NCBI GenBank assembly: GCA_036873755.1
Contig: JAVTVY010006829.1
Coordinates: forward strand, 248,001 to 312,000
Direction: 5' to 3'
Length of the DNA: 64,000 bases
From: Hanleya hanleyi
Taxonomy: Eukaryota > Mollusca > Polyplacophora > Lepidopleurida > Hanleyidae
Each line of letters starts with the position of its first letter. Positions within the stretch are counted from its first letter, which is position 1. The translations under genes were made by a program, and so were the position numbers. A model generated the notes under the pieces. It was not told where the DNA came from, did no database searches, and saw only the letters and a list, made by a program, of their open reading frames with translations. This document shows positions 12,526 to 63,593 of this stretch, piece after piece.

Positions 12526-13317
12526 TTATCGTCACTGGCGGTATATTACCGGTCACTGGCAGTATATTACCGGTCACTGGCGGTACATCACCGGTCACTG
12601 GCGGGATATTTCCGGTCACTGGCGGGATATTTCCGGTCACTGGCGAGTAGGTATATTACCGGTCACTGGCGGTATATTACCGGTCACTGGCGGTATCTTA
12701 CCGGTCACTGGCGGGATATTTCCGGTCACTGGCGAGTAGGTATATTACCGGTCACCGGCGGTATATTACCGGTCACTGGCGGTACCTTACCGGTCACTGG
12801 CGGGATATTTCCGGTCACTGGCGAGTAGGTATATTACCGGTCACTGGCGGGATATTTCCGGTCACTGGCGGTATCTTACCGGTCACTGGTGGTATCTTAC
12901 CGGTCACTGGCGGTATATTACCGGTCACTGGCGGGATATTTCCGCTCACTGGCGGGATATTTCCGGTCACTGACGAGTAGGTATATTACCGGTCACTGGC
13001 GGGATATTTCCGGTCACTGGCGAGTAGGTATATTACCGGTAACTGGCGGGATATTACCAGTCACTGGCGTTATATTACCGGTCACTGGCGGTATCTTACC
13101 GGTCACTGGCGGTATATTACCGGTCACTGGCGGGATATTTCCGGTCACTGGCGGGATATTTCCGGTCACTGGCGAGTAGGTATATTACCGGTCACTGGCG
13201 GTATATTACCGGTCACTGGCGGTATCTTACCGGTCACTGGCGGGATATTTCCGGTCACTGGCGAGTAGGTATATTACCGGTCACTGGCGGTATCTTACCG
13301 GTCACTGGCGGTATATT
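12526..13317 (+). repeat. Minisatellite of 21/26-bp units carrying ACCGGT
   Basis: About 36 units built on 'ggtcactggcggtatattacc', with alternative ends 'gggatatttcc', 'ggtatcttacc' and a longer 'gagtaggtatattacc' form. The variants recur in blocks, which suggests a higher-order repeat made by duplication of multi-unit blocks. The 21-bp period keeps frames open and produces repetitive 96-103-codon ORFs that are not genes. ACCGGT at nearly every junction is self-complementary and holds a CpG. Confidence 0.95.
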
Positions 13318-26599: not shown

Positions 26600-26989
26600 C
26601 AGTTGAATTGAATTGAATTGAAATTTTTATTCACCATACAGAGAAGATATGTATATAAATCAATGTAAAATGCGTCCATATTGTCCGTATATTGGCGGAA
26701 ATAAAACCCTTGCGGGTTTGTTTTATCCCTAAGAATATATATGTTGTAAAACATTAAACAGCGAGAGTATAATTATATATATAAACAGATGGTGAATAGA
26801 AATAGTTAAGTAAATATATTCCGACATTATGCAGTTGTACCATTAAATATGAATTGTCCGGTAAAGATAATAAGTACATGTATCCGTGTCAGCAATACGT
26901 TAAATAATCAAATATAACAAATAATGTTTACCTTTCAAATAAAATGATATTGAGTTACCGAGTGTGATGATCACTCTCTGTTGCGCTCA
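26600..26989 (-). mobile_element. Retrotransposon 3' UTR and (CAATT)n tail
   Basis: On the minus strand the sequence ends 'tatggtgaataaaaatttc' and then repeats CAATT four times (26,603-26,624), a LINE-like 3' end with an embedded AATAAA. The upstream part, 26,705-26,989, is present again in inverted orientation at 27,907-28,189. The coding part is not recognisable. Confidence 0.5.
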
Positions 26990-28189
26990 TAATATTTTTC
27001 ATTAGTTGCCTTAACAGTCAAATCTTATAGCGATGAAATGGCTGGACCTGCTTGGCCCAGTATCTTTCAGGAGTTTTTTTAGATGACTCTAGATGTCGAT
27101 AACCGAGTATCGTTGACAGTTCATTACTCACCCACATATTGAAATTGTATGCAACTGCAGGAAAGTTCCATTGGCCCGAGGAATAACGCCGTGGACACAA
27201 AATACCCTTGGCGATCGGTATCCGGACCCTTGCGATGACATTTTAAAGTTATAGATGATTTCCCATTTGGACGAACATCCCCTTCTTATTATCCTAGTCG
27301 TTAGAAAATAATAGATATTAAGAAATTGTCCCCATGAGAAAATTAATCTCCAGTAAGCAGAACTTTATGACGAAGAAAACGCTTCAAGAAAGACAGCTTA
27401 TTGACATGTTTCCAAACCTACATCCAGGAATACACGACCTGTATGTAAGAGAAATGCCACGTTTGTTTGTGCAAGAGGTAAATGAATTATCAAACAGATT
27501 GAATCCACATCTATACATTCACGAGAATATTTCATACTTCCACAGTATCAAAAGCCTCATAGTGGAATAAGAGTGGGGGAGAAGAAAAATGCACGAAAGG
27601 TAGGACGGACAAGAAAAAAATAAAACAAAGAAACAATATGGTGGCCGAGAGGGGCCATCGTCACTTCGCCATCGTGCCATAGGGCGATAGAGCGATAGAG
27701 CGATGGCGATAGAGCGATAGAGCGATAGAGCTATGGCGATAGAGCGATAGAGCGATGGCGATAGAGCGATGGCGATAGAGCGATAGAGCGATGGCGATAG
27801 AGCGATAGAGCGATGGCGATAGAGCGATAGAGCGATGGCGATAGAGCGATAGAGCTATGGCGATAGAGCGATGGCGATAGAGCGATAGAGCGATAGAGCG
27901 CAACAGAGCGCAACAGAGAGTGATCATCACACTCGGTAACTCAATATCATTTTATTTGAAAGGTAAACATTATTTGTTATATTTGATTATTTAACGTATT
28001 GCTGACACGGATACATGTACTTATTATCTTTACCGGACAATTCATATTTAATGGTACAACTGCATCATGTCGGAATATATTTACTTAACTATTTCTATTC
28101 ACCATCTGTTTATATATATAATTATACTCTCGCTGTTTAATGTTTTACAACATATATATTCTTAGGGATAAAACAAATCCGCAAGGTTT
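26705..28189. repeat. Outer inverted repeat, about 285-bp arms
   Basis: The arm 26,705-26,989 ('aacccttgcgggtttgtttt' ... 'tctctgttgcgctc') is the near-perfect complement of 27,907-28,189. The 917-bp spacer holds unassigned frames of 60 and 78 codons and the minus-strand GCGATAGA array at 27,676-27,906. It sits directly outside the giant palindrome and shares its array, so this locus contains nested inverted repeats. Confidence 0.9.
27640..27910 (-). repeat. CTATCG satellite array, copy 1
   Basis: Reverse complement of GCTCTATC-GCTCTATC-GCCATC (22-bp higher-order unit with 8- and 6-bp subunits). It is preceded by the conserved flank 'atggtggccgagaggggcc'. Three more arrays with the same flank are at 34,036 (+), 34,722 (-) and 40,660 (+). 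All forward frames stay open and read ALSLYRHRSI, a repeat artefact rather than a protein. Confidence 0.95.
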
Positions 28190-28973
28190 CGTACTAAATG
28201 GAATTTAGACTGGTCACAAGGTGACTTTAAGCTATTAGGTCTTCTGTTTACAACAATTTGGCCGAAAAGGTTGAAAAAATTACAAAGATAAATTAAAAGA
28301 TATTGTCATACTCATGAAGATATGGTCCAAAATAGGATTGACTCCACTAGGACGAAATGTCATTTTAAAAAAGCTTGTTGTTGCCGAAACTCAACCATCT
28401 ATTTTCCTCTCTTCCAATCCCACCCGAACCACTTATAAATGAATTCCAGAAACGCTGTTTTGAATTTATTTGGAACTCGAAACCTGATAAAATTTTCAGA
28501 CAAATTTCTGTTAAACCACTTGAACATGGCGGTTTTGATAATCCTATTGTTAATATGTAATCCAGGCACAACATATATCGTGATTAGGATATTACAAGCT
28601 GATAATTCCAAGTGGGGTAATATTTTGAAAATGTATATGCCAAACAATATAGACCCAATAGGAGTTGGTTCAGCATTCTTAAGAACTAATATTATACCAA
28701 CGATGGAAAACGTATTTTGGAGGGACACGCTTCTAGCCTGGACAGAATTTCAAATAAAACTAGAGGACTGTCAAACTTTCTCGAATGAAATGATACAATG
28801 AAAAAATTAAAATTGATAATAAAGCTCTACATTTAGGTCACTGGGATGGAAAAGGCGTGCGGTTTGTAAATGATATTTTAGGTAATAACGGATCTTTTTT
28901 GTCACTTGACTCTTTTCAGTCCATTTATAAATGCGCAGCCAATTTTCTGGAATAATTATCAGTATTTCAGGCA
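28190..28973 (+). pseudogene. L1-like LINE ORF2 fragment, left arm, 5' part
   Basis: The frame at 28,375-28,560 gives LPKLNHLFSSLPIPP, EFQKRCFEFIWNSKPDKI and LEHGGFDNP, which match the region after the RT domain of L1/Tx1-type ORF2 proteins (SKLNHLF...FIW...K...GG). Frameshifts lead into 28,439-28,801 (WGNILKMYMPNN, LLAWTEFQIKL). The LINE is interrupted at 28,973 by the transposon FB1 and resumes at 32,601. The RT catalytic core is absent; the element is 5'-truncated. Confidence 0.75.
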
Positions 28974-30196
28974 AGTGGTATATAAAACTGATATTAACGC
29001 AACTTGACCTTTGACATAAACAATTTGCATAGTGGGGAGAAAAACTACCTCCGAACACAGAAGAGTTCCAATTTTTGCAGGTCACTGCGCAGGTCAAGTG
29101 GTTGCCATGGTGACGTCACTTCCGGTCACGTGACCTTTGGGGCATGTATTCCTCCGCGGTGATGCGGTCGCGGGAAAAAGCCTCCGCGTACAGAAAAATA
29201 GTCTCAAATACGCGGGGAGCTGGGGGAAATTCTCCGGCAATCTTCGGCAATCTCCGGGACATTTTGGGGGCGAGAGGGGCCCATAGTGGACCGATTGGGT
29301 CGAATGAGGTGTCAAAGTGAAGCGCTCCTCCAGGGCGATCAAGTAGTGGGTGGGTGTATGTAAAATTAGGATTTGTCCCAAAAATACAAAAAGCGGAACA
29401 CGGACTTTACCCCTACAATAGGAGAAACCCCTATCAACCATATTCAAACGAGATAATATCGGTCTCCGGCTTATCGGGCCTGCCTATCAAGTCATGGGTG
29501 GGTGCATGTAAATTGAGGATTTGTCCCCGAAAATATAAAAAGTGGAACACGAACTTTACCCCTAAAATCGTGCCTGATTCGCACATTTGCATCTGTACGG
29601 GAAAATGCCTGTATGTGTATAGGATTGATCATTTTTTTGTGGATTTTACTATGGGTTGTGGTGTCTTGTTTTCTTCGTCTCATCACGTAAAGCACGATGG
29701 GAAGGGTCTCGGAGCTAAGCGGTGAAATTTTTCGAAAAAGTCCCTGCGCGCATGCGTAGTGGGTAAATAGTGCTGGATGGCTGTTTTGGGGTCTAGGTGA
29801 GCCCCAAGTGGTCCGATGGTGTCGTACGAGGTCTTATTTTGAAGCTCTCGTGGAGGAGCATCCCGGCTGGGCTAATGCATCGTCCACTTTCAATATTCTG
29901 CGCATGCGCAGTCTGGCCGTAGTATAGAAAGCAGGCATTTTGGGGGAGCGTGGGAGTGTGCTTGGGGTAGAGCTGGACCACTATTGGTCCAAATGGGTCG
30001 TGGGAGGGGTCAAAGTGAAGCTTTTGTGGGGTAGTCAGAATGGCGTGCTATTTATTGCAAGTCGCGTCAATCTGCGCATGCGCAGTTGGGTGTAGTAAGT
30101 AAAGTGGTCATTTTGTGGGTGCGTGGGGTGTGTTTGGGGTAGAGATGGACCACTATTGGTCCGAATTCGCCGTGGGAGGTGTCATTTTCTAGCTCC

Positions 30197-31008
30197 CGGG
30201 GTGTAGACCCCGATTTGATGGATGTCCACAGCATCTATGACGTCATCGGTGACGTCATCAGTACAAGTAGTAGCGAAAGTGCATGTACTATGTGCCTATA
30301 CATGTACTATGTGCCTGTACATAGTGCCTGTTTTGGTCTTTGATATATATTGGCATTTGTGGGAAGTTGATGCTGGGTCGACATCGGGCCTTACAGACTA
30401 GTCTTTCGTGTTAAATGCCCGTCATTTACATCTGACGACGATACAGCTCAACAATCTCCAATGTACGAGTTGTCACAGCGAAACAGCTCACCAATTACCA
30501 GTATACGAGTTGTCAGAGCATTTCCATCATAGCTCTCTAGATTTGTATCTAATACCGCTTATGCCGGTGCTAGGGGCCGTATGGTCATATCATCCAAGTT
30601 GCCACATGAACAGGTGCAATAAAAGCGTACCTGAGATACAACACATATCACGAATCGTTAGATTCTTGGTATGTGCTTTAGAATAGGTTAACCAGAAGAC
30701 TATTCTGTGAAGTCATGTGACGCAGTCAGTATGTCGGCACCTCTTCCCACTTCCCTTATATGTGTTGTAATCTGTCCATATACATATACTCTACCAATGT
30801 ACATTTTTCTTGTCCATGTACTTATACTCTTGCGGGAACAGCACAGTATCCTGATAATATATACATCGCGGTGATGTGGTGTTAGCCAGCTTATCTGGCT
30901 AGCACTTCACACATTTATCGTTTTGAATTTTTCTTAATTGTAAGAAATTACATATCAGACTGTATGTTTGTTGTCCATAATAATAAAATAATTATGTATG
31001 ACCAGACT
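30197..31008. other. Left-arm-specific insertion containing rB copy 4
   Basis: At the matching place the right arm passes directly from 'attttctagct' to 'gactgtatctatgtt' (about 38,030-38,045), whereas the left arm has about 810 bp more. The extra DNA includes CRE-like 'gacgtcatcggtgacgtcat', a (catgtactatgtgcctgta) repeat and family rB on the minus strand. It shows the arms evolved separately after duplication. Confidence 0.75.
30515..30775 (-). repeat. Dispersed repeat family rB, copy 4
   Basis: Reverse complement of copy 1, including its extension ('ccatcatagctctct'), the tail module with hairpin, and the 5' end 'cccttatatgtgttgtaa'. This is the most complete match to the 1.5-kb copy. Confidence 0.85.
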
Positions 31009-31129
31009 GTATCTATGTTGTCCATAATAATAACCTAAGTATGTATGACCAGTTACATCCGGGGACCTTTGTTTTACATCCGGGACCTCATCTTACATCC
31101 GGGGTTTTCATTGTTTTACATCCGGGACT

Positions 31130-31345
31130 GTGGTTTTACATCCGGATGCTACAATATATGTCTTGTATTATTCAATATATGTCTTGTATTATACCATATC
31201 TGTGCTGTATTTTACAATATATGTCTTGTATTATACCATATCTGTGCTGTATTATACCATATCTCTCCTATGTTATACAATATCTGTCCTGTGTTATACA
31301 ATATCTGTCCTGTATTGTACCATATATGTCCTGTATTCTGACTCT
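31130..31345 (+). repeat. FB1 internal minisatellite, about 20-bp unit
   Basis: Around ten units of the type 'tatgtcttgtattatacca' and variants. The equivalent array in FB2 is on the opposite strand at 37,605-37,880 and is longer. Just upstream are four 'ttacatccgggg' phrases that also occur in FB3. Confidence 0.9.
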
Positions 31346-32600
31346 ACCCCACAAAAGCTTCACTTTGACACCTCCCACGAACCATTTGGACCAATAGTGG
31401 TCTATCTGCATCCCAAACACCCCCCCACGCACCCCCAAAATTCCTGCTTTCTATACTACGGCCAGACTGCGCATGCGCAGAATATTGAAAACGGACGATA
31501 CATTAGTTCAGTCGGATGCTCCTCCACGAGAGCTTCAAAATAAGACCTCTTGCGACACCATTGGACCACTAGGGGCTCACCTAGACCCCAAAACGGCCAG
31601 CCAGCACCATTTACCCACTACGCATGCGCGCAGTGACTTTTTAAACAAAATGCACCACTTAGCTTCGGGATCCCGCCCATCGTGTTCTACGTGGTGAGAC
31701 GTGAAAAACAAGATCCCACAACCCATATCGCAATGAACATGTGTGAATTGCCAAGTATGGACCTATCCACTGAGCCATTAGGCCTATGGGCCTATCCATA
31801 CTTCCGTGAACTTTTCGACAAATTTCACCGCTTAGCTTCGGGAACCCGCCCATGTGTTCTACGTGGTGAGACGTGAAAAACAAGATCCCACAACCCATAT
31901 CGCAATGAACAGGTGCGAATTGCCCAGTATGGACCTATCCATTGAGCCAGTAGGCCTATGGGCCTATCCAGATCTCCGTGAACTTTTCGAAAAATTTCAC
32001 CGCTTAGCTCAGAGACCCTTCCCATCGTGTTTTACGTGGTGAGACGAAGAAAACAAGACCCCACAACCCATAGTAAAATCCACAAAAAAATGACCACCCC
32101 TATATCCGTATAGGCATTTTCCCGTACAGATGCAAATGTGCGAATCGGGCCCTATTTTAGGGGTAAAGTCCGTGTTCCGCTTTTTATATTTTCGGCACAA
32201 ATCCTAATTTTACATACACCCACCAATGACTTGATCGCCCTGGAGGAGCGCTTCACTTTGACACCTCACTCAACCCAATCGGTCCCCTAGGGCCCCTCTC
32301 GCTCCCAAAATGTCCCGAAGATTGCCGGAGAATTTCCCTCAGCTCTCCGAGTATTTGGGACTACTTTTTCTGTCCACGGAGGCTTTTTCCCGCGACCGCA
32401 TCACCGCCGACGGCTTCACCGCGGAAGAATGCCCCAAAGGTCACGTGACCGGAAGTGACGTCACCATGGCAACCACTTGATCTGCGCAGTGACCTGTGAA
32501 AATTGGAACTCTTCTGTGTTCGGAGGTAGTTTTTCTCCCCAATATGCAAATTTTTTAGGTCAAAGGTCAAGTTGCGTTAATATCAGTTTTATATACTACT

Positions 32601-33430
32601 CAAGCAGTACGGAAAGCAGCAAACAACATGCGATTTGGACTATTACAGAAACAATATATGATACCGTTGATACCGCCCCCTATTTCACTATTAATAAGTG
32701 TAAAAAAAAGACTGTAAAATGTTATATAGAAATCTCTTGACCTTTAGATTTACTGTACTAAACAGTTCTTGAAAAAAATTATAGTGATTCGGAGTGGTAT
32801 ATATGGAATAATAATGTAACAAAGAGATGTGAAATATAAATGGTTTCGATACAGAATTTTTAACCGAATATTGACTACCAACATTTTTGCACATAAACTT
32901 TACCCTGATATATCTAACTTATGTACATTTTGTAGCAAAGTTCCAGAGACTATTATTCATCTCTTTTGGGAATGTGAACATATCTACCCTTGGTGGAGTT
33001 TACTGGAAAATTGGTTCGCTTCGGCGGGTGTTCCAATTGTATTTTCTCCAGAAAAAGTTATACTTGGTCTTTTACAACCCAGAAATCAGCCACTCAACTA
33101 CTGTATTTCTATTATTAAATTTTCTATATATAATCCCTTGGTTGAAAAGTGTTCAAAACGCTTTAAATGTGCGTACGAAACCGATAAATATTTCCAGTAT
33201 AAGAACTGCGAATGGCGCTTGTTTTGCCAGTATTGGTCATCGCTGCATTTACTGTTTAGACTCTTATGATGTTGTTTGCGTAGATAAATCGAGGTGTAAT
33301 GACGATGTATCTGTTTGTTGTATAACATGAGTTTCTAATTACAAATACAACCATTTTTGTTTAGTACAATAAAATATTGTATGTACAATGTGTATTACCT
33401 AACAAAACCAAATAAGATATAAAAAAAAAT
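32601..33430 (+). pseudogene. L1-like LINE ORF2 end and 3' UTR, left arm
   Basis: The 146-codon frame 32,829-33,269 holds KYKWFRYRIFNRILTTN and the zinc motif C-x2-C-x8-H-x4-C (LCTFCSKV...HLFWECEHIYPWW), diagnostic of the L1/Tx1-type ORF2 C-terminus. A frameshift at about 33,130 relative to the right-arm copy removes several residues (KIKVVKT is present only on the right). The 3' UTR contains 'caataaaatattg' and ends in an A-run at 33,420-33,429, a true retroposed 3' end. Confidence 0.85.
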
Positions 33431-34035
33431 CAGTGTTTGTTCTATGCGATTTAGTGTTAAGTCCAGCCACGATCAGCACAATCTTAATGAATTATCAGTT
33501 TCATATGACATCCGCCTTTCTTTTTCGATAAAAACGCGGAAGTGGCCACGTTCGGCACCCACAATTTCAAATAATTCAGCTTACGTATCGACGGACGAAT
33601 TGGTCTTTTCTTTCAGAGGAGTTAGAAGTTGAATTTGACGAAAAATTACGAGACTATGGGTAAATCAGATCACCAATATTTTAGGGGGGGGGAGAGTGAC
33701 CTCTTCTATTTCGATTCTACGTTGACTTTTTTACAAGCGTTGATCAGCATTAATTACAAAACTTGATTTCAAATGTATATGTTCAGATGTATATGTTCAC
33801 CAGAGAGCGAATATCACTGCTTTATTTATTAGATTCTTATGTCGATCTTTTAGCCAATGTTTATTATTTTAGCCCATATACAATAAAATTTATCGGTCTA
33901 TCTCTCTGTGTTATCTGTGTAATCTTTGTGGTATGCCGCTGGCCCCTATAGTATTCATGAATCCGCCTGATAATAACTAGAGTTAAGCGGCGAGGTCTCT
34001 TGTGTTGGAGGTACGATTATCACCGTATGAATATG
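33431..34035 (+). repeat. rE-related flank between L1 and satellite, left arm
   Basis: 33,440-33,690 matches 25,650-25,890 of rE copy 1. The rest, to 34,035, is AT-rich and repeated inverted in the right arm at 35,076-35,664. No gene. Confidence 0.7.
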
Positions 34036-34458
34036 CATGATTATGAGACATGCGCAGTCATGTACTTCACTCTATCGCTCTATCGCCATCGCTCTATCGC
34101 TCTATCGCGATATCGCCATCGCTCTATCGCCATCGCTCTATCGCTCTATCGCTCTATCGCCATCGCTCTATCGCTCTATCGCCATCGCTCTGTCGCCATC
34201 GCTCTATCGCTCTATCGCTCTATCGCCATCGCTCTATCGCTCTATCGCCATCGCTCTATCGCTCTATCGCCATAGCTCTATCGCTCTATCGCTCTATCGC
34301 CATAGCTCTATCGCTCTATCGCTCTATCGCCATAGCTCTATCGCTCTATCGCCATCGCTCTATCGCTCTATCGCCATCGCTCTATCGCTCTATCGCTCCA
34401 TCGCTCTGTTTTTTGACGTACGATGGCGAAGTGACGATGGCCCCTCTCGGCCATCATA
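34036..34458 (+). repeat. CTATCG satellite array, copy 2
   Basis: Flanked by 'gcgcagtcatgtacttc' on the left and 'gatggcgaagtgacgatggc' on the right, as in the 40.7-kb copy. Contains variants GCGATATC and CATAGC. It forms the inner end of the left palindrome arm. Confidence 0.95.
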
Positions 34459-34721
34459 GTATATTTTAATACGCCGGAAGAATTTGACATTCTAGCTCTT
34501 GGAACGAACTCGGAATTATATGTGTACTGCCCAGTGAGAAAGATTTGATCACGGAAACATCACGGTGTGACCTCCTCGAGCACCTTATTGGAAACTGGTA
34601 AGAACAAAATACGGTTTTCCTCTAATTTATGGGGTTTTTTTTCGCTACATACCGAAGCTTATTAGGTCAGCAGGATGAAACAACAAAGGTTCTTGTAGTC
34701 CATCATCCCAAACAGAAAAGT
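34459..34721. other. Palindrome spacer
   Basis: 263 bp of unique sequence between the arms. It contains no recognisable gene or repeat. It would form the loop of any extruded hairpin. Confidence 0.7.
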
Positions 34722-35075
34722 ATGGTGGCCGAGAGGGGCCATCGTCACTTCGCCATCGTACGTCAAAAAACAGAGCGATGGAGCGATAGAGCGATAGAGC
34801 GATGGCGATAGAGCGATAGAGCGATGGCAATAGAGCGATAGAGCGATGGCGATAGAGCGATAGAGCTATGGCGATAGAGCGATAGAGCGATGGCGATAGA
34901 GCGATAGAGCGATGGCGATAGAGCGATAGAGCGATGGCGATAGAGCGATAGAGCGATAGAGCGATGGCGATAGAGCGATAGAGCGATGGCGATAGAGCGA
35001 TAGAGCGATGGCGATAGAGCGATGGCGATAGAGCGATAGAGCGAAGTACATGACTGCGCATGTCTCATAATCATA
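34722..35075 (-). repeat. CTATCG satellite array, copy 3
   Basis: Mirror image of copy 2 at the inner end of the right arm, with the same flanks inverted. The unit order differs in detail, which shows independent turnover. Confidence 0.95.
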
Positions 35076-35664
35076 TATTCATACGGTGATAATCGTACTT
35101 CCAACACAAGAGAGCTCGCCGCTTAACTCTAGTTATTATCAGGCGGATTCATAATACTATAGGGACCAGCAGCATACCACAAAGATTACACAGATAAAAC
35201 AGAGAGATAGACCGATAAGTTTTATTGTATATGGGCTAAAATAATAAACATTGGCTAAAAGATCGACATAAGAATCTAATAAATAAAGCAGTGATATTCG
35301 CTGTCTGGTGAACATATACATCTGGAACATTTGAAATCAAGTTTTGTAATTAATACGGATCAACGCTTGTAAAAAAATCAACGTAGAATCGCAATAGAAG
35401 AGGTCACTCTCCCCCCCCCCCCTAACATATTGGTGATCTGATTTACCCATAGTCTCGTAATTTTTCGTCAAATTCAACTTCTAAGAAAAGACCAGTTCGT
35501 CCGTCGATGCGTAAGTTGAATTATTTGAAGTTGTGGGTGCCGAACGCGGCCATTTCCGCGTTTTTATCGAAAAAGAAAGGCGGATGTCATATGAAACTGA
35601 TAATTCATTAAGATTGTGCTGATCGTGGCTGGACTTAACACTAAATCGCATAGAACAAACATTT
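35076..35664 (-). repeat. rE-related flank, right arm
   Basis: Reverse complement of 33,431-34,035 with a longer poly-C/poly-G tract (35,411-35,422). No gene. Confidence 0.7.
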
Positions 35665-36501
35665 TTGTTTTATATATCTTATTTGGTTTTGTTAGGTAAT
35701 ACACATTGTACATACAATATTTTATTGTACTAAACAAAAATGGTTGTATTTGTAATTAGAAACTCATGTTATATAACAAACAGATACATCGTCATTACAC
35801 CTCGATTTATCTACGCAAACAACACCATAAGAGTCTAAACAGTAAATGCAGCGATGACCAATACTGGTAAAACAAGCGCCATTCGCAGTTCTTATACTGG
35901 AAATATTTATCGGTTTCGTACGCACATTTAAAGCGTTTTGAACACTTTTCAACCAAGGGAGTTTTAACTACTTTAATTTTATATATAGAACATTTAATAA
36001 TAGAAATACAGTAGTTGAGTGGCTGATTTCTGGGTTGTAAAACTTTTTCTGGAGAAAATATAATTGGAACACACGCCAATGCGAACCAATTTTCCAGTAA
36101 ACTCCACCAAGGGTAGATATGTTCACATTCCCAAAAGAGATGAATAATAGTCTCTGGAACTTTGCTACAAAATGTACATAAGTTAGATATATCAGCGTAA
36201 AGTTTATGTGCAAAAATGTTGGTAGTCAATATTCGGTTAATAATTCTGTATCGAAACCATTTATATTTCACATCTCTTTGTTACATTATTATTCCATATA
36301 TACCACTCCGAATCACTATAATTTTTTTCAAGAACTGTTTAGTACAGTAAATTTAAAGGTCAAGAGATTTCTATATAACATTTTATTACAGCCTTTTTTT
36401 ACACTTATTAATAGTGAAATAGGGGGCGGTATCAACGGTATCATATATTGTTTCTGTAATAGTCCAAATCTCATGTTGTTTGCGGCTTTCCGTACTGCTT
36501 G
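35665..36501 (-). pseudogene. L1-like LINE ORF2 end and 3' UTR, right arm
   Basis: The 154-codon minus frame 35,807-36,271 repeats the zinc motif LCTFCSKV...HLFWEC seen in the left arm. Differences include FALACVPII for FASAGVPIV, loss of ILGL, and retention of KIKVVKT. The LINE is again interrupted by the transposon, at 36,502. The upstream part, IPLIPPPISLLIS, lies at 36,386-36,480. Confidence 0.85.
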
Positions 36502-39397
36502 AGTAGTATATAAAACTGATATTGACACAACTTGACCTTTGATCTAAAAAATTTGCATATTGGGGAGAAAAACTACCTCCGAACACAGAAGAGTTCCAAT
36601 TTTTACAGGTCACTGCGCAGATCAAGTGGTTGCCATGGTGACGTCACTTCCGGTCACGTGACCTTTGGGGCATGTATTACTTCGCGGTGAAGCCGTCGAC
36701 GGTGATGCGGTCGCGGGAAAAAGCTTCCGTGGACAGAAAAAGTAGTCCCAAATACGCGGAGAGCTGAGGGAAATTCTCCGGCAATCTTCGGGACATTTTG
36801 GGAGCGAGAGGGGCCCCTAGTGGACCGATTGGGTTGAGTGAGGTGTCAAAGTGAAGCGCTCTTCCAGGGCGATCAAGTCATTGGTGGGTGTATGTAAAAT
36901 TAGAATTTGTCCCGAAAATATAAAAAGCGGAACACGGACTTTACCCCTAAAATAGGGCCTGATTCGCACATTTACATCTGTACGGGAAAATGCCTATAGG
37001 GGTATAGGGGTGGTCATTTTTTTGTGGATTTTACTATGGGTTATGGGGTCTTGTTTTCTTCGTCTCATCACGTAAAACACGATGGGATGGGTCTCTGTGC
37101 TAAGCGGTGAAATTTTTCGAAAAGTTCACGGAGGTCTGGATAGGCCCATAGGCCTACTGGCTCAATGGATAGGTCCATACTTGGCAATTCACACATGTTC
37201 ATTGCGATATGGGTTGTTAGATCTTGTTTTTCATGTCTCACCACGTAGAACACGATGAGTGGGGTCGCGAAGCTAAGCGGTGATTTTTATTTAAAAGTCA
37301 CTGCGCGCATGCGTAGTGGGTAAATGGTGCTGGATGGCCGTTTTGGGGTCTAGGTGAGCCCCTAATGGTCCGATGGTGTCGCAAGAGGTCTTATTTTGAA
37401 GCTCGCGCGGAGGAGCATCCGACTGAACTAATGTATCGTCCCTTTTCAATATTCTGCGCATGCGCAGTCTGGCCGTAGTATAGAAAGCAGGCATTTTGGG
37501 GGTGCGTAGGGGTGTGTTTGGGATAGAGATAGACCACCGTCACTATTGGTCCAAATGGTTCGTGGGAGGTGTCAATGTGAAGCTTTTGTGGGGTAGAGTC
37601 AGAATACAGGACATATATGGTACAATACAGGACAGATATTGTATAACACAGGACAGATATTGTATAACATAGGAGAGATATGGTATAATACAACACAGAT
37701 ATGGTAGAATACAAGATATACTGTAAAATACAGCACAGATATGGTATAATACAGGACAGATATTGTATAATACAGGACTGATATTGAATAATACAGGACA
37801 TATATTGTATAATACAGGACGGATATTGAATAATACAGGACAGATATTGTATAATACAAGACATATATTTTATAATACAAGACATATATTGTAGCATCCG
37901 GATGTAAAACCACAGTCCCGGATGTAAAACAATGAAAACCCCGGATGTAAGATGAGGTCCCGGATGTTAAACAAAGGTCCCCGGATGTAACTGGTCATAC
38001 ATACTTAGGTTATTATTATGGCCAACATAGATACAGTCAGCTAGAAAATGACACCCCCCACGGCGCATTCGGACCAATAGTGGTCCATCTCTACCCCAAA
38101 CACACCCCCACGCACCCCCAAAATGACCACTTTACTTACAACACTCAACTGCGCATGCGCAGCTTGACGCGACTTGCAATAAAAAGCACGCCATTCTGAC
38201 TCTACCACACAAAAGCTTCACTTTGATCCCTCCCACGACCCATTCGGACCAATAGTGGTCCATCTCTACCCCAAGCACACTCCCACGCACCCCCAAAATG
38301 CCTGCTTTCTATACTACGGCCAGACTGCGCATGCGCAGAATATTGATGCATTAGCCCAGTCGGATGCTCCTCTACGAGGGCTTCAAAATAAGACCTCGTA
38401 CGACACTATCGGACCACTTGGGGCTCACCTAGACCCCAAAACAGCCACCCAGCACTATTTACCCACTACGCATGCACGCAGGAAATTTTTCGAAAATTTT
38501 CACCGCTTAGCTCCGAGACCCTGCCCATCGTGTTTTACGTGGTGAGACGAAGAAAACAAGACACCACAACCCATAGTAAAGTCCACAAAAATGACCACCC
38601 CTATACACATACAGGCATTTTCCCGTACAGATGCAAATGTGCGAATCAGGCACGATTTTAGGGGTAAAGTTCGTGTTCCACTTTTTATATTTTCGGAGAC
38701 AAATCCTCACTTTACATGCATCCACCCATGACTTGATAGGCAGGCCCGATAAGCCGGAGACCGACATTAGCCCTTTTGGACATGGTTGATAGGAGTTTTC
38801 CCCTATTGTAGGGGTAAAATCCGTGTTCCGCTTTTTATATTTTCGGGGACAAATCCTCAATTTACATGCACCCACCCATGACTTGATAGGCAGGCCCGAT
38901 AAGCCGGAGACCGATATTAGCCCTTTTGAACATGGTTGATAGGGGTTTCCCCTATTGTAGGGGTAAAGTCCGTGTTCCGCTTTTTGTATTTTTGGGACAA
39001 ATCCTAATTTTACATACACCCACCCACTACTTGATCGCCCTGGAGGGGCGCTTCACTTTGACACCTCACTCGACCCAATCGGTCCACTAGGGGCTCTTCT
39101 CCCCCCAAAATGTCCCGGAGATTGCTGAAGATTGCCGGAGAATTTCCCCCAGCTCCCCGCGTATTTGAGACTATTTTTCTGTACGCGGAGGCTTTTTCTC
39201 GCGACCGCATCACCGCGGAGGAATACATGCCCCAAACGTCACGTGACCGAAATGACGTCACCATGGCAACCACTTGACCTGCGCAGTGACCTGCAAAAAT
39301 TGGAACTCTTCTGTGTTCGGAGGTAGTTTTTCTCCCCACTATGCAAATTTCTTAGGTCAAAGGTCAAGTTGCGTTAATATCAGTTTTATATACTACT
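36502..39397. mobile_element. FB2: mirror copy of the long-TIR transposon
   Basis: Left end AGTAGTATATAAAACTG at 36,502, right end CAGTTTTATATACTACT at 39,397. Flanks are tgcttg and tgcctg, the same imperfect 6-bp target duplication as FB1 read on the other strand. FB1 and FB2 therefore descend from one insertion duplicated with the palindrome. TIRs are about 36,502-37,604 and 38,195-39,397. Perfect TGCGCATGCGCA sites lie at 37,454, 38,150 and 38,326. No coding gene. Confidence 0.88.
37605..37880 (-). repeat. FB2 internal minisatellite
   Basis: About 13 units of 'acaggacagatattgtataat', the complement of the FB1 array. The 168-codon frame across it is repeat-driven (MSCIIQYLSCII type) and not a gene. 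Confidence 0.9.
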
Positions 39398-40190
39398 TGC
39401 CTGACATACAGATAATTATTCCAGCAAATTGGCTGCGCATTTATAAATGGACTTAAAAGAGTCAAATGACAAAAAAATTCCGTTATTATCTGAAATATCA
39501 TTTACAACCCGCACGCCTTTTCCATCCCAGTGACCTAAATGTAGAGCTTTGTTATCAATTTTAATCTTTTCATTGTACCATTTCATTCGAGAAAGTTTGA
39601 CAGTCCTCTAGTTTTATTTGAAATTCTGTCCAGGCTAGAAGCGCGTCCCTCCAAAATACGTTTTCCATCGTTGGTATAATATTAGTTCTTAAGAATGCTG
39701 AACCAACTCCTATTGGGTCTATATTCTTTGGCATATACATTTTGAAAATATTACCCCACTTGGAATTATCAGCTTGTAATATCCTAATCCACGATCTATT
39801 TTGTGCATGGATTACATATTAACAATAGGATTATATAAACCGCCATTTTTCTGAAAATTTTATCAGGTTTCGAGTTCCAAACAAATTCAAAACAGCGTTT
39901 CTGGAATTCATTTATAAGTGGTTCGGGTGGGTGGAAGAGAGGAAAATAGATGGTTGAGTTTCGGCAACAACAAGCTTTTTTAAAATGACATTTCGTCCTA
40001 GTGGAGTGAATCCTATTTTGGACCATATCTTTTTATTTATTTATTTACTGATTTTGACATATAGTCTGGGTTAAAGAGCGGGACACAGCCAATATTAATC
40101 TTTTAATATCTTTTAATTTATCTTTGTTGGTACTTGGCATAAAACTGCAATTTAAAACCAGTCACGACAAATTTAGACCCGCGAAGGAAG
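39398..40190 (-). pseudogene. L1-like LINE ORF2 fragment, right arm, 5' part
   Basis: The minus frame 39,796-40,026 gives PPEPLINEFQKRCFEFVWNSKPDKIF, matching the left arm. It extends further upstream than the palindrome itself (40,030-40,190) with LINE-like sequence that is only partly alignable with the left side. Frameshifted and 5'-truncated. Confidence 0.7.
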
Positions 40191-40659: not shown

Positions 40660-41222
40660 ACGCAGTCATGTACTTCGCTCTATCGCCATCGCTCTATCGC
40701 TCTATCGCCATCGCTCTATCGCTCTATCGCTCTATCGCCATCGCTCTATCGCTCTATCGCCATCGCTCTATCGCTCTATCGCTCTATCGCCATCGCTCTA
40801 TCGCTCTATCGCCATCGCTCTATCGCTCTATCGCCATCGCTCTATCGCTCTATCACCATCGCTCTATCGCTCTATCGCCATCGCTCTATCGCTCTATCGC
40901 CATCGCTCTATCGCTCTATCGCCATCGCTCTATCGCTCTATCGCTCTATCGCCATCGCTCTATCGCTCTATCGCCATCGCTCTATCGCTCTATCGCCATC
41001 GCTCTATCGCTCTATCGCTCTATCGCCATCGCTCTATCGCTCTATCGCCATCGCTCTATCGCTCTATCGCTCTATCGCCATCGCTCCATCGCTCTATCGC
41101 TCTATCGCCATCGCTCTATCGCTCTATCGCCATCGCTCTATCGCTCTATCGCCATCGCTCTATCGCTCTATCGCCCTATGGCACGATGGCGAAGTGACGA
41201 TGGCCCCTCTCGGCCACCATAG
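40660..41222 (+). repeat. CTATCG satellite array, copy 4 (longest)
   Basis: About 500 bp of the 22-bp higher-order unit between 'gcagtcatgtacttc' and 'ccctatggcacgatggcgaa'. It is the inverted partner of copy 1 at 27.6 kb, which shares the 'cgtgccatagggcgatag' end, while copies 2 and 3 share a different end. Two long frames (230 and 184 codons) across it are artefacts. Confidence 0.95.
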
Positions 41223-44967: not shown

Positions 44968-44973
44968 CACATT
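44968..44973 (+). repeat. FB3 target-site duplication, left (CACATT)
   Basis: CACATT immediately precedes the AGTAGTATATAG terminus and is repeated immediately after the right terminus at 50,383-50,388. A perfect 6-bp duplication. Confidence 0.9.
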
Positions 44974-46635
44974 AGTAGTATATAGAGCGCATTAACCCGC
45001 GTGTTGACCTCTTTGCACTTAAATTTGAGGCGGTCACGTGACAGAGGTCAAAGGTCATTGAGTGCACTTGAGTTGACCTGTATCCTTTCATCTTGTCTTT
45101 GACCTTGGATCATGTTTAGACATGTTAGGGCTGGGGGTTTTCCATCACGTGCGGTATGACGTCACTTCCGTTCTGGGTGAATGGGGCGTGACCTGTGAAC
45201 ATGATAGGACATGCACTGACCTGTCTGTGGGGTTTTTCCCTACAATGTCGTTCACCTTCGTGTTTTTTCGGTGAGGTGCGAAGGGTACGTCCGTGTCTTT
45301 TCGGTGAGGTCCGTGGGAACATGATAGGCCATGTACTGTCTGTGGGGTTTTTCCCGCCAGAATTTCGCTGTCGTCTGCTTGGGGTTGTCACGTGCCGAAC
45401 ACCTGGCTCCCCGAATTGCAACATTGTTGCACGTTCGCAAGGATTGCCCTATATCCGGGTCCTTTAGCAATACCATTGATGGGATGCGTGTACGGACTTG
45501 TATTTGGGGTTTTTCCATCACGGGGAGATCAGGTGATAGTTCAAGGTCATGTTGAATGATAGGAATGCGTGTACTGACCTGTTCATCTGTGGTTTACATC
45601 CGGGGACTTATATCCGGGTCCTTTAGCTGTGTGTTCCGGGTACTTTCGAGTTTACACGGGAACAGTCGGGTAGTTACGGAGGAAGACACGGAGGTGACCG
45701 AAGATGTCACGGAGGTGCCCGAAGAGACACGGAGGTTACCGAAGATGTCACAGAGGTCACAGAAGAGACACGGAGGTGGCCGAAGATGTCACGGAGGTTA
45801 CCGAAGAGACACGGAGGTGCCCGAAGAGTCACGGAGGTTACCGAAGATGTCACGGAGGTCACCGAAGAGACACGGAGAGGTGTATGACGTCACTTCCGGT
45901 CTGCGTGAATCGGGCGTGACCTGGGTATGACTGTATGGGATGTACTGACTTGGTTCTGGGTTTTCTCCATCATGCGGCGGTCACGTGATTAGGAGTGCAT
46001 GTACGGACTTGTATGCCGTCCATTCATTTGAGTCGGGGACTTGGGGTCTCTACGGAAGGATTTTGCAAGTCATGGGTGGGTGTATGTAAAATGAGGATTT
46101 GTCTCGAAAATATAAAAAGCGGAACACGGACTTTACCTCTAAAATAGGGGAAAACCCCTATCAACTCTATCCCAGAGGGCTAATATCGGTCCCTGGCTTA
46201 TCGGGTTCTGCCTGGAGTGGGTGTATGTAAAATTAGGATTTGTCCCCGAAAATATAAAAAGCGGAACACGGACTTTACCGCTAAAATAGGGAAAAATTCC
46301 TATCAACCAAATGATATAGGGTGGGTGTATGTAAATTTAAGATTTGTCCCGAAAATATAAAAAGCGGAACACGGACTTTACCCTACAATAGGGGAAAACT
46401 CCTATCAACCCTATCTCAAAGGGCTAATATCGGGCCTTGGCTTATCGGGGCCTGCTGAGAGAGGTAGGGTGGGGGAGTGGGTGCATGAAAATTTAGGATT
46501 TGTCCCGAAAATATAAAAAGCGGAACACGGACTTTACCCCTACAATAGAGGAACCCCTATCAACCTTGTCCAAAAGGGCTAGTATCGGTCCCCGGGTCTA
46601 TCGAAGTGTGGGTGCATGGGTGGGTGCATGTAAAA
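44974..46635 (+). repeat. FB3 left TIR
   Basis: Pairs with 48,715-50,382. From the outside in it contains E-box CACGTG next to 'agaggtcaaagg', 'cggtatgacgtcacttccg', a coding-like minisatellite (45,660-45,885), and copies of the 'gtccgtgttccgctttttat' unit read on the opposite strand. Frames such as 45,556-45,930 (124 codons) recur on the other arm because of the inverted repeat, not because of selection. Confidence 0.9.
45660..45885 (+). repeat. TIR minisatellite, 20-21-bp units, left
   Basis: About ten units alternating 'acggaggtgaccgaagatgtc' and 'acggaggtgcccgaagagac'. Near-mirrored at 49,470-49,690 with different unit substitutions. Translates to TEVTEDVTEVPEETRR-type low-complexity frames in several phases. 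Confidence 0.92.
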
Positions 46636-46640
46636 TATAG
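46060..46640. repeat. Array of about 110-150-bp units, left TIR
   Basis: Four or more units contain 'gtatgtaaaattaggatttg', 'aaaagcggaacacggacttt' and '...gggctaatatcggtcc'. The same unit occurs on the right at 48,490-49,290 and in FB1 and FB2 (29,345-29,580; 32,150-32,230; 36,890-36,960; 38,650-39,020). It is the most abundant signature of this transposon family here. Confidence 0.9.
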
Positions 46641-46838
46641 AAAGTGACCTTTTACCCTGCGCTGCTCTAAAGTGACGTCATCGTACGCAGGCGCACACAC
46701 ACATACCTGGTGCACCCACACCCTGGTGTACCCTATAGCCCGTACTGGCTATAGGGTACAGGGTGCGCCAGGTATGTGTGTGTGCGCCTGCGTACGATGA
46801 CGTCACTTCCGAGCAGCGCAGGGTCAAAGGTCACTTCC
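46640..46838. repeat. FB3 internal palindrome with 6-nt loop
   Basis: The left arm 46,640-46,740 ends 'accctatagcc' and the right arm 46,747-46,838 begins 'ggctatagggt', with only CGTACT between them. The arms contain 'tgacgtcatcgtacgcaggc' and a (CA)n/(TG)n block. Pairing is nearly complete except for a short insertion in the left arm. It lies just inside the left TIR and upstream of the gene. Confidence 0.93.
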
Positions 46839-46924
46839 GGTCACCTGGTCAAAGGTCACTTCCGGTCACGTGACCGAAAGTGCACTCAGAGTTCAAAGGT
46901 TAATCGGCCTCCAAAAGCCCTTTA

Positions 46925-47165
46925 TCGCTCGTTAAGGCGCTGAGACGGGCGTTAAGGCGTAAAGATAGGGCGTTAAGGTATTGAGACGGGCGTTAAGGCG
47001 TAACGACGGGTGTTGACGGGCGTTGAGACGGGCGTTAAGGCGTAACGACGGGTGTTGACGGGCGTCACTGCATTTCGATGTATTGGTGGCAATTCCATGA
47101 AAACCAGGGCTTCTGAGCTAGTTCACCAGGGCGTTGAAGCGATAAGCTAAGCGTTGACGGGCGTT
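46925..47165 (+). repeat. GCGTTAAGG-type tandem repeats upstream of the FB3 gene
   Basis: Irregular units 'gggcgttaaggcgtaacgac' and 'gggtgttgac' repeat about ten times and end at the promoter. Another unit ('gggcgttaaggcgtaacgac') lies beyond the gene at 48,140. Possible enhancer or binding-site array; function inferred only from position. Confidence 0.85.
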
Positions 47166-47171
47166 ACTGTC

Positions 47172-47178
47172 TATAAAA
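47172..47178 (+). promoter_or_regulatory. TATA box of the FB3 gene
   Basis: TATAAAA at 47,172-47,178, with an initiator-like CACAGTC whose A is at 47,204 (32 bp downstream) and the first ATG at 47,225. The 5' UTR would be about 20 nt. Confidence 0.75.
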
Positions 47179-47224
47179 GCAAGTGTAATGCCAAAACACG
47201 CACAGTCGACGTTCAGCCATCAAT

Positions 47225-47845
47225 ATGGCTTATACTTGCTCTGAGTGCCAACGCACGTTCACCAGACGTTACGATATCATGCGACACGAGAAAAATATAC
47301 ATGAGATTGAAGACTCCGAGGCACAAGAAGCCGATACAGAAATTGATGAGAGTCTATCTACTGATAAGGAGAGCTTGACCCCAGATAGTCAGCTTACATC
47401 CCAGGAAAGTGAGATTGCTGAGAGTCTATATACTGATACGGAGAGCTTGACCTCAGATAGTCAGCCTACATACCAGGAAAGTGAGGCAGAACCTTCCTTC
47501 TGGGATCGTATTGTGACAGCAGCTATCAATACTCATGCTGCAGCGATCGAGAACGCCGGACAGGATAACTTACAACAGGCGTACACCCAAATGCGCCCCT
47601 GCATCAGGAAAACAGCCATGGCGATCTATGAACAGTATACCTTACTACCGCTTGAAATGAAAGGCGACCCCACGCACAGGTCCATTATGAAGACCAAGCG
47701 TCACTTGGAAGAGGATATGGGGCTACCACCCACTGAGGCCCTGGAAAATGCGATCAGGATGCGCAAAACAACTCTTTCAGAACATGCTGCCCAAACAATA
47801 TCCAGGCCTGCCCGACCACGATTAGGTCACACCGAGCAAAGATGA
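47225..47845 (+). CDS. FB3-encoded C2H2 zinc-finger protein, 206 aa
   Basis: Starts at the first ATG after a TATA promoter. Residues 3-26 form one canonical C2H2 finger: C5-x2-C8-x12-H21-x4-H26, with F12. Residues 27-89 are acidic and hold an in-frame 24-residue tandem duplication (42-65 and 66-89, from a 72-bp repeat). Residues about 90-185 look helical, starting SFWDRIVTAA and including QMRPCIRKTAMAIYEQYTLL. The tail is basic and Pro/Arg-rich. There is no signal peptide or membrane span. A nuclear DNA- or RNA-binding accessory protein is the natural inference. I do not recognise the helical domain and see no transposase-type DDE or polymerase motif. Intronless, with AATAAA 189 bp after the stop codon. 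It is the only non-repetitive, motif-bearing frame in the element. Confidence 0.85.
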   Translation: MAYTCSECQRTFTRRYDIMRHEKNIHEIEDSEAQEADTEIDESLSTDKESLTPDSQLTSQESEIAESLYTDTESLTSDSQPTYQESEAEPSFWDRIVTAAINTHAAAIENAGQDNLQQAYTQMRPCIRKTAMAIYEQYTLLPLEMKGDPTHRSIMKTKRHLEEDMGLPPTEALENAIRMRKTTLSEHAAQTISRPARPRLGHTEQR

Positions 47846-48033
47846 AAGTTTCTGAAACGGCGACTTCTGATTGGACAAGAGCAGCCGAGAATACATCTAA
47901 CGCAGTAACGGGCAAGAACGAATATGACTGATACAGCGCCAAATGGCGGCCTCTGATTGGACAAGAGTCTTCTTGAATTGTAAACATACCCAACGCGGCT
48001 CCCCCAGCGTGGGTATGATGTACTGGAGGGGAG

Positions 48034-48039
48034 AATAAA
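48034..48039 (+). terminator. Polyadenylation signal of the FB3 gene
   Basis: AATAAA at 48,034-48,039, followed within 30-50 nt by a GT/T-rich stretch ('ttgttgttctctc', 'ttgttgttgttgttttt') that suits the downstream cleavage element. Together with the TATA box it defines a transcript of about 0.85 kb. Confidence 0.75.
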
Positions 48040-48119
48040 CCATATAAAAAAAACATGTTGTTGTTCTCTCATCTCTCATCCTTGTTGTTGTTGTTTTTCT
48101 TTCATCAGTGTATATCATG

Positions 48120-48485
48120 GCGTCAAGGCGTTATGCTAGGGCGTTAAGGCGTAACGACGGGAGCTCGGAGCTCGGGGATGGAGTAGTCGGGAGCTCGGAG
48201 CTCGGGGATAAGGCAGGCAGGAGCTCGGAGCCCCAAAATTGTTGCTTTCTATACTACTCCTAAATGTAAGATGAGGACCCGGATGTAAAACTGATACCCC
48301 ACACGGTCCATTTGACCAGGTATGGGCCCTCAATCACTCAACAAACCTCCACGAATCCCCAGAATGCCTGCTTTCTATACTACGGCCAGTGCAAAATGAT
48401 GAAAACGGACGATACATTAGTCCAGTCGGATCCCACTCACAAACAAAAATTACCACCCCCCATACCCCATACAGGCATTTTCCCG
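48120..48485. repeat. GAGCTCGG repeats and FB1-like segment
   Basis: 'gggagctcggagctcgggga' repeats three times (48,155-48,230). The following 250 bp match the FB1/FB2 interior ('cctgctttctatactacggc', 'gaaaacggacgatacattag'). This shows common ancestry of the three elements beyond their TIRs. Confidence 0.8.
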
Positions 48486-48714
48486 TATATTGTATAATAC
48501 AAGCCCCTATTGTAGAGGTAAATTCCGTGTTCCGCTTTTTATATTTTCGGGGACAAATCCGCATTTTACATGCACCCACCCATGACTTGATAGGCAGACC
48601 CCGATAAGCCAGGGACCGATATTCGCCCTTTGGGACAGGGTTTATAGGAGTGTTCCCCTATTGTAGGGGTAAAGTCCGTGTGCCGCTTTTTATATTTTCG
48701 GGGACAAATCCTCA

Positions 48715-50382
48715 TTTTACATGCACCCACCCATGCACCCACACTTCGATAGGACCGGGGACCGATATTAGCCCTTTTGGACAAGGTTGATAGGGGTTTT
48801 CCTCTATTGTAGGGGTAAAGTCCGTGTTCCGCTTTTTATATTTTCGGGACAAATCCTAAATTTACATGCACCCACTCCCCACCCTACCTCTCTCAGCAGG
48901 GCCCGATAAGCCAGGGCCCGATATTAGCCCTTTGAGATAGGGTTGATAGGAGTTTTCCCCAATTGTAGGGTAAAGTCCGTGTTCCGCTTTTTATATTTTC
49001 GAGACAAATCCTAAATTTACATACACCCACTCCCCCACCTTATATCATTTGGTTGATAGGAATTTTTCCCTATTTTAGCGGTAAAGTCCGTGTTCCGCTT
49101 TTTATATTTTCGGGACAAATCCTAATTTTACATACACCCACTCCAGGCAGAACCCGATAAGCCAGGGACCGATATTAGCCCTCTGGGATAGAGTTGATAG
49201 GGGCTTTCCCCTATTTTAGAGGTAAAGTCCGTGTTCCGCTTTTTATATTTTCGAGACAAATCCTCATTTTACATACACCCACCCATGACTTGCAAAATCC
49301 TTCCGTAGAGACCCCAAGTCCCCGACTCAAATGAATGGACGGCATACAAGTCCGTACATGCACTCCTAATCACGTGACCGCCGCATGATGGAAAAAACCC
49401 AGCACCAAGTCAGTACATCCCATAGTCATACCCAGGTCACGCCCGATTCACGCAGACCGGAAGTGACGTCATACACCTCTCCGTGTCTCTTCGGTGACCT
49501 CCGTGACATCTTCGGTAACCTCCGCGACTCTTCGGGCACCTCCGTGTCTCTTCGGTAACCTCCGTGACATCTTCGGCCACCTCCGTGTCTCTTCGGTGAC
49601 CTCCGTGACATCTTCGGTAACCTCCGTGTCCCTTCGGGCACCTCCGTGACATCTTCGGTCACCTCCGTGTCTTCCTCCGTAACTACCCGACTGTTCCCGT
49701 GTAAACTCGGATGTACCCGGAACACACAGCTAAAGGACCCGGATATAAGTCCCCGGATGTAAACCACAGATGAACAGGTCAGTACACGCATTCCTATCAT
49801 TCAATATGACCTTGAACTATCACCTGATCTCTCCGTGATGGAAAAACCCCAAATACAAGTCAGTACACGCATCCCATCAATGGTATTGCTAAAGGACCCG
49901 GATATAGGGCAATCCTTGCGAACGTGCAACAATGTTGCAATTCGGGGAGCCAGGTGTTCGGCACGTGACAACCCCAAGCAGACGACAGCGAAATTCTGGC
50001 GGGAAAAACCCCACAGACAGTACATGGCCTATCATGTTCCCACGGACCGCACCGAAAAGACACGGACGTACCCTTCGCACCTCACCGAAAAAACACGAAG
50101 GTGAACGACATGGTAGGGAAAACACCCACAGACAGGTCAGTACATGTCCTATCATGTTCACAGGTCACGCCCCATTCACCCAGAGCGGAAGTGACGTCAT
50201 ACCGCACGTGATGGAAAACCCCCAGCCCTAACATGTCTAAACATGATCCAAGGTCAAAGACAAGATGAAAGGATACAGGTCAACTCAAGTGCACTCAATG
50301 ACCTTTGACCTCTGTCACGTGACCGCCTCAAATTTAAGTGCAAAGAGGTCAACCCGCGGGTTAATGCGCTCTATATACTACT
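48715..50382 (-). repeat. FB3 right TIR
   Basis: Complement of the left TIR. The 'gtccgtgttccgctttttat' units extend a little further inward on this side (48,490-48,714). Ends 'gcgctctatatactact'. Confidence 0.9.
49470..49690 (-). repeat. TIR minisatellite, right
   Basis: Mirror of the 45,660-45,885 array with a few unit-specific substitutions (for example 'cgcgactcttcgg'). Confidence 0.92.
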
Positions 50383-50388
50383 CACATT
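50383..50388 (+). repeat. FB3 target-site duplication, right (CACATT)
   Basis: CACATT directly after the terminal ACTACT, identical to 44,968-44,973. Confidence 0.9.
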
Positions 50389-62884: not shown

Positions 62885-62916
62885 TATATAAAGACTTCTC
62901 ATGTGCTTCTCACTTT
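62885..62916 (+). promoter_or_regulatory. Core promoter of the PC4-like gene
   Basis: TATATAAA at 62,885-62,892 and a perfect initiator TCACTTT (YYANWYY) at 62,910-62,916, with A+1 at 62,912, 27 bp from the TATA start. This places the ATG at 62,901 upstream of the transcript and makes 62,949 the first usable start. Confidence 0.75.
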
Positions 62917-62948
62917 ATTCTACGACTGTCGCACCTGTAAAAGCCAAT

Positions 62949-63593
62949 ATGTATCGACTAATGAGTAATCTCTACGTTCAAGTGAGGGGTGAAGGAAATT
63001 CTCCTCAAGTAACATTTCAACGTATACGACATAATGGGCAGATTATAAAACCTTATGGTGTTGCCATACGACTGACGAGAGATGGGTGGTTTTCATTCAA
63101 ACAATTCCTGCCTAGAGTGGATAGAATGATTCAGGCTAAAGAGACGGTTGAAACTCCATTCAAGCTACAAGATAATATATACATTAGCACTGCAGCATAT
63201 GAAGGGGAATGGTTCGTCCACATAAGAGAGTGGTTCCTAAAATCATCAACCAGCGAGTTGAAACCAGGTCGGAACGGACACACGCTGAACACGAAAGGCT
63301 GGGATATGTTGAAAAAACTCATTCCTATCATTGAGACCAACATGATTGAAATAGAACAGTGTCCCGTCAGCAACGAATTCAACACGTCTATCACAGGACC
63401 AATTCTCCCACCTAAACCAGTTGGATCTGCCGCGAGTGATCTACCGAGCGAGAATTTGGTGAATGATAATGGTGGATATTCATACGATGAAGCGGACGAC
63501 GTCTCTATGTGCGACATTTTACACCACAACCAAATGGAACAGTTGCATTGTGACACGTGCAATCCTATGGGGGCGGGATTACTTCACTGGTGA
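62949..63593 (+). CDS. Protein with two tandem PC4-like modules, 214 aa
   Basis: The start is chosen at 62,949 because the in-frame ATG at 62,901 lies upstream of the predicted initiation site. Residues 78-132 match the single-stranded-DNA-binding domain of transcriptional coactivator PC4/Sub1: YIS...WFVHIREWF (92-96 IREWF), then LKPGRNGHTL (KPGRNG 105-110), W118, and LKKLIPIIETN. Residues 8-61 look like a second, diverged copy: LYVQVR, then RHNGQIIKPYG, RLTRDGW (W47), FKQFLPRVDRM. Ordinary PC4 has one module, which dimerises, so a fused pair is unusual. The C-terminal third is acidic and ends in a His/Cys cluster (CDILHHNQMEQLHCDTC) that could bind metal. A possible role is ssDNA binding in transcription or replication. 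Whether it is host or mobile-element encoded is unknown. Confidence 0.78.
   Translation: MYRLMSNLYVQVRGEGNSPQVTFQRIRHNGQIIKPYGVAIRLTRDGWFSFKQFLPRVDRMIQAKETVETPFKLQDNIYISTAAYEGEWFVHIREWFLKSSTSELKPGRNGHTLNTKGWDMLKKLIPIIETNMIEIEQCPVSNEFNTSITGPILPPKPVGSAASDLPSENLVNDNGGYSYDEADDVSMCDILHHNQMEQLHCDTCNPMGAGLLHW

Follow-up and report, generated by a model that had tools for sequence, protein, structure and literature searches.

A gene-bearing fold-back transposon with a 6-bp target-site duplication in Hanleya hanleyi, and a second member of its family

Which enzyme moves a transposon that consists of long inverted arms around a single gene? This question is raised by FB3, a 5409-bp element at positions 44974-50382 of a 64,000-nt stretch of DNA from the mollusc Hanleya hanleyi (contig JAVTVY010006829.1, 248,001-312,000 of the forward strand). 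We refer to this stretch as the window, and all coordinates are positions in it. FB3 is a genuine, complete mobile element, a fold-back DNA transposon. What is new in our analysis is FB2a, a family member beside FB3 in the same window. We propose that FB3 is non-autonomous and is moved in trans by an integrase that cuts with a 6-bp stagger, most likely one of the Polinton/Maverick type. We give this proposal about an even chance.

Ends, arms and target-site duplication of FB3

FB3 has the termini AGTAGTATATAG/CTATATACTACT and is flanked by copies of the hexamer CACATT at 44968-44973 and 50383-50388. All six positions of this target-site duplication (TSD) match, and other lengths between 2 and 12 bp give at most three matching positions. 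Among 200,000 random boundary pairs placed 2-8 kb apart in the same window, 71 had a 6/6 match and 1113 matched at five or more of the six positions. The left arm (44974-46636, + strand) starts with AGTAGTATATAG and the right arm (48714-50382, - strand) ends with CTATATACTACT. Self-alignment indicated that these terminal inverted repeats (TIRs), about 1.66 kb each, are 97.5% identical over 1673 columns, the differences being 29 substitutions (16 transitions, 13 transversions) and 14 gap columns. The boundaries, termini, arm length and exact 6-bp duplication given in the initial annotation of this locus are all borne out.

The same annotation described the arms as long and near-identical. Their identity agrees with this, but the arms are not simple. 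Each contains a 41-bp minisatellite, located at 45684-45877 on the + strand in the left arm and mirrored at 49479-49672 in the right, together with a repeat unit of about 0.1-0.15 kb that holds AAAAGCGGAACACGGACTTTACC and is present several times. The subterminal repeats with AAAAGCGGAACACGGACTTTACC at 46076-46636 (+ strand) are common to FB3, FB2a and FB2b, a mirror copy of FB2a, as seen in a repeat comparison and by blastn. Copies of the 0.1-0.15 kb repeat extend into the core on the right side only, at 48504-48713. The order from the outside is therefore an 11-nt end, AGTAGTATATA, the motifs ATTAAC and TTGACCT, the 41-bp minisatellite and the AAAAGCGGAACACGGACTTTACC repeats. The core (46637-48713, 2077 bp) comes next, with a hairpin that has no counterpart on the right, then GC-rich repeats of about 20 and about 42 bp, a TATA box, an open reading frame (ORF) of 206 aa and an AATAAA signal. 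The minisatellite has 4.8 copies in both arms, which supports our proposal; the arms may stay alike through copying between each other.

Additional features are found within these regions. One 124-aa ORF lies over the minisatellite in each arm, and neither has a Pfam match. The hairpin (46642-46836) sits where the left arm meets the core. It is 195 nt long and near-perfect, with 76-nt arms that are 95% complementary, and its predicted DNA fold has an energy of -111.5 kcal/mol (z -23). It is perhaps a nested miniature element, although no flanking duplication was recognised by eye.

We consider it very improbable that FB3 is no transposon but an inverted duplication formed by chance or an error of the assembly. 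The window does hold another kind of inverted duplication, at 28317-40031, which is either real or an assembly join, but in FB3 an exact 6-bp direct repeat abuts exact termini, and these termini recur in a second element at a different site.

A second family member in the window

This second element, FB2a, occupies 28974-32600 on the + strand and is 3627 bp long. It has the same 11 terminal nucleotides as FB3, with one substitution at the left end, and carries the subterminal repeats. Its last 450 nt mirror its first 450 at 89%. The flanking hexamers are CAGGCA at 28968-28973 and CAAGCA at 32601-32606, which match at five of six positions; among lengths of 2-12 bp, only a 2-bp match fits besides. 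The initial annotation had proposed that TSD length be checked in further copies, and the one independent copy found here thus also has 6 bp. Because FB2a carries both, AGTAGTATATA-type ends and a 6-bp stagger can be regarded as traits of the family. The presence of two differently sized members with shared ends in one 64-kb window suggests that the family is probably common enough in its genome for direct tests.

FB2b (36502-39397, - strand, 2896 bp) is the mirror of FB2a within an inverted duplication of the flanks. Its flanking hexamers are the same pair, indicating that it is the same insertion as FB2a and not an independent one. The duplication at 28317-40031 comprises about 5 kb per side of LINE-like sequence with FB2 inserted, and the identity of its main blastn pieces is about 91-94%. 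It may be a true palindrome, or the assembly may have joined two haplotypes. Three of nine scanned ORFs match zf-RVT, in each case below the curated cut-off. Two of the three lie beside FB2; the ORF in the left flank of FB2a (28439-28801) has no such match. From these weak matches and the general look of the sequence, we take the flanks to be LINE-like.

The relationship between FB2 and FB3 was quantified at their ends. When 110 nt of the FB3 left end were compared with the FB2a right end, the first 54 nt aligned with a local score of 42, higher than in any of 2000 resamplings (maximum 39). With the first 11 nt left out, the observed score is equalled or exceeded in 27 of 2000 resamplings, and the similarity past the terminus is therefore only moderate. 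Chance tests on end alignment, ORF length and word counts used first-order Markov draws, not exact dinucleotide shuffles. A blastn search with FB3 against the window (E <=0.01) gave 222 matches, of which 157 are in FB3, 32 in FB2a, 33 in FB2b and 0 elsewhere.

Scanning the window for AGTAGTATATA with at most one mismatch gave 13 sites. Six of them mark the termini of FB2a, FB2b and FB3. The remaining seven lie at 4590, 19910, 41823 and 62078, at 32793 and 36307 as a mirrored pair in the inverted duplication, and at 48258 in the FB3 core; no element bounded by any of them could be demonstrated. The site at 62078 was considered as one end of an element bearing a nearby ORF and was dropped, as it has no partner end. 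This intronless ORF of 230 aa (62901-63593) contains a PC4 coactivator domain (Pfam E 8.5e-08, above the cut-off). TATATAAAG is found upstream of it, and downstream another open frame runs off the window end.

Several consensus words for transcription factors were counted in FB3, FB2a and FB2b (11932 bp) and in the other 52068 bp. TGACGTCA occurs 12 times versus 5, CACGTGAC 18 versus 2, ACTTCCGG 7 versus 4 and AGGTCA 44 versus 37. Relative to Markov resamplings of their sequence, the three elements are also enriched in all four words. The arms are possibly promoter-like, but we do not build upon these counts since copies within related arms are not independent.

Core gene, proposed mechanism and other window features

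The core of FB3 contains a single intronless gene with a TATA box and an AATAAA signal, in agreement with the initial annotation of one C2H2 gene in a core of about 2.1 kb. The gene lies at 47225-47845 on the + strand, and its 206-aa product has a C2H2 finger at the N terminus, an acidic linker that contains a 24-aa duplication and a presumed helical C-terminal part. The gene is the sole ORF of at least 110 aa in the core. It exceeds the longest ATG ORF in 996 of 1000 core resamplings, and 4 of 1000 reach its length. The TATA box TATAAAAG (47172-47179, + strand) and the AATAAA (48034-48039, + strand) were read from the sequence and may function as promoter element and poly(A) signal, respectively. 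Repeats of the GGCGTTAAGGCGTAACGACGGG type are found upstream of the gene at 46930-47065 (+ strand), and another copy (86%) is located downstream at 48136-48157.

Residues 3-26 of the protein match Pfam zf-C2H2 with an E value of 0.00027 and also match C2H2 proteins in the PDB. The C-terminal part gave nothing convincing in searches of Pfam, 5.8 billion proteins, the PDB or NCBIfam, and the protein as a whole has no match in NCBIfam. Invertebrate genomes often encode small C2H2 proteins whose C-terminal part is similarly helical, a likeness that nothing found here supports. An AlphaFold model from the single sequence has a mean pLDDT of 49.9, too poor for a fold search.

Judging from the finger and the repeat-rich arms, FB3 probably encodes this protein as an accessory factor that binds DNA. 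In the mechanism we propose, an integrase acting in trans, and most likely belonging to the Polinton/Maverick (retroviral-integrase) type, would bind the shared terminal AGTAGTATATA and join both FB3 ends to the target with a stagger of 6 bp. The C2H2 protein, expressed from its own TATA promoter, would bind repeats in the arms or beside its promoter and act as an accessory factor or regulator. The element would contribute a DNA-binding helper and borrow the catalytic enzyme. If the ends are shared with Polintons, FB3 would be a gene-bearing satellite of a virus-like transposon, and its C2H2 protein would provide a handle on how fold-back arms are recognized. A broader version, which we regard as rather unlikely, is that FB3-type elements constitute a distinct fold-back family of satellites of Polinton-type integrases, with their own single-finger C2H2 helper that binds the arms for targeting or synapsis.

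A number of results weigh against this proposal. Protein-family scans covered intact ORFs of at least 110 aa, with Pfam run on 19 of the 27 such ORFs in the window; all were checked in FB3 (3/3), FB2a (4/4) and FB2b (2/2). None of them matches a transposase, polymerase, integrase or capsid protein, and neither protein-primed family B polymerase nor retroviral-type integrase was matched. The four ORFs of FB2a have no Pfam match. A weak match in one of seven ORFs of the FB3/FB2 scan (E 0.075, 13.4 bits versus a cut-off of 28.8) was taken as chance. The window holds just two independent insertions, FB3 and FB2a. Joining the LINE-like flanks of FB2 into a model of the empty site did not single out 6 bp. 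With 0, 4, 5, 6, 7 and 8 nt removed from the right flank, the longest open frame over the junction measured 60, 75, 67, 58, 74 and 66 codons in FB2a; in FB2b the values were 63, 71, 90, 61, 70 and 89. Removal of 6 nt left the shortest frame at both, and the flank frames are degenerate.

The protein itself adds to these points. Its single finger scores 21.6 bits, below the Pfam cut-off of 25.2. The copies of the 72-bp duplication that encodes the repeated 24 aa in the linker differ at seven codons, six of them with amino-acid changes, suggesting that the linker at least is without sign of constraint. Third codon positions of the ORF have no base preference. The search of 5.8 billion proteins returned 51 candidate relatives, none at E <=1. 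The protein gave two pattern matches in viral contigs, neither confirmed, and no match in phage records, and a 23-nt pattern from the subterminal repeats was found 0 times in the viral contigs. The misses in the protein, viral and phage collections weigh little because animal genomes are not the focus of these collections. In the window, tblastn with the protein (E <=10) matched only its own locus. FB2a and FB2b therefore have no trace of the gene, which indicates that it is dispensable for family membership.

The absence of the gene from FB2a and FB2b is also expected if the arms captured the C2H2 ORF from the host, as a gene or part of one without a role in mobility. Its position between GGCGTTAAGGCGTAACGACGGG-type repeats on both sides is consistent with such a capture. 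However, the ORF is intronless, has its own TATA box and AATAAA, and is the sole recognised gene of FB3. We consider capture a serious possibility, if a little short of an even one. It is compatible with a Polinton-type integrase and equally with an enzyme of another superfamily.

The window has further features. A separate inverted-repeat element at 26704-28189 has 285-bp arms that are 99% alike and holds a GATAGAGC satellite, which is also found at 34070-34407, 34783-35044 and 40675-41179. Two minisatellites are located at 8625-9409 (49-bp unit, 16 copies at 98%) and 12531-13317 (21-bp unit, about 36 copies). An Rfam scan of the window gave 0 matches at gathering scores.

Comparison with known transposons

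Mobilization of FB3 in trans by a Polinton-type integrase is our leading guess because of the 6-bp stagger and the AG ends, the latter being a Polinton trait. FB3 and FB2 carry 5'-AG on both strands at their ends. Among Polinton traits, the 6-bp TSD, named in the initial annotation, is consistent with FB3 (6/6) and FB2a (5/6), and long TIRs are consistent with the 1.66-kb arms of FB3. For the AG...CT ends, which the initial annotation also named, no confirmation was found in the literature searched. In their available sections, PMC10045372, PMC12220804 and PMC8969392 give 6-bp TSDs for Polintons and rve integrases, and PMC8969392 gives Polintons TIRs of hundreds of bp and a length of 15-40 kb. 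The available sections of PMC2836005, PMC6431247 and PMC4028283 contain nothing decisive on the ends. FB3 differs from Polintons in its length of 5.4 kb, in its internally repetitive, fold-back arms and in the lack of a match to PolB, rve integrase or capsid in the scanned ORFs. Since these coding features are absent, we do not class FB3 as a Polinton.

FB3 could instead be a non-autonomous element of a different cut-and-paste superfamily whose TSDs have this length (IS3EU/GingerRoot-like, Dada), or of an undescribed one, with the C2H2 ORF captured or accessory. We regard this as possible but doubtful. TSDs of the Dada group are 6-7 bp. The available sections of PMC10045372 describe TSDs of usually 6 bp for IS3EU and 6 bp for GingerRoot, a length that FB3 shares, and the scanned ORFs of FB3 and FB2 include no recognised Polinton protein. 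According to the same sections, though, the ends are always TA..TA in IS3EU and mostly so in GingerRoot. FB3 and FB2 begin with AG, the ends of FB3 being AG...CT, and FB3 has no transposase match in the scanned ORFs.

In architecture, FB3 resembles Drosophila Foldback (FB, FB-NOF) and Galileo, as its arms are long, inverted and internally repetitive. The available sections describe long, internally repetitive TIRs for Galileo (PMC3573991) and, in them, multiple binding sites for the THAP domain of its own transposase (PMC3688188). No fold-back element with a C2H2 gene is found among the literature matches listed, as far as their available text goes, subscription papers and Repbase lying outside this coverage. 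FB3 differs from Foldback and Galileo in that the scanned ORFs of FB3 and FB2 match neither a THAP nor a Mutator-type transposase. Its TSD is only 6 bp, compared to 7-9 bp in those elements. Gene-bearing fold-back elements are already known in kind: FB-NOF, like FB3, carries a gene between its fold-back arms.

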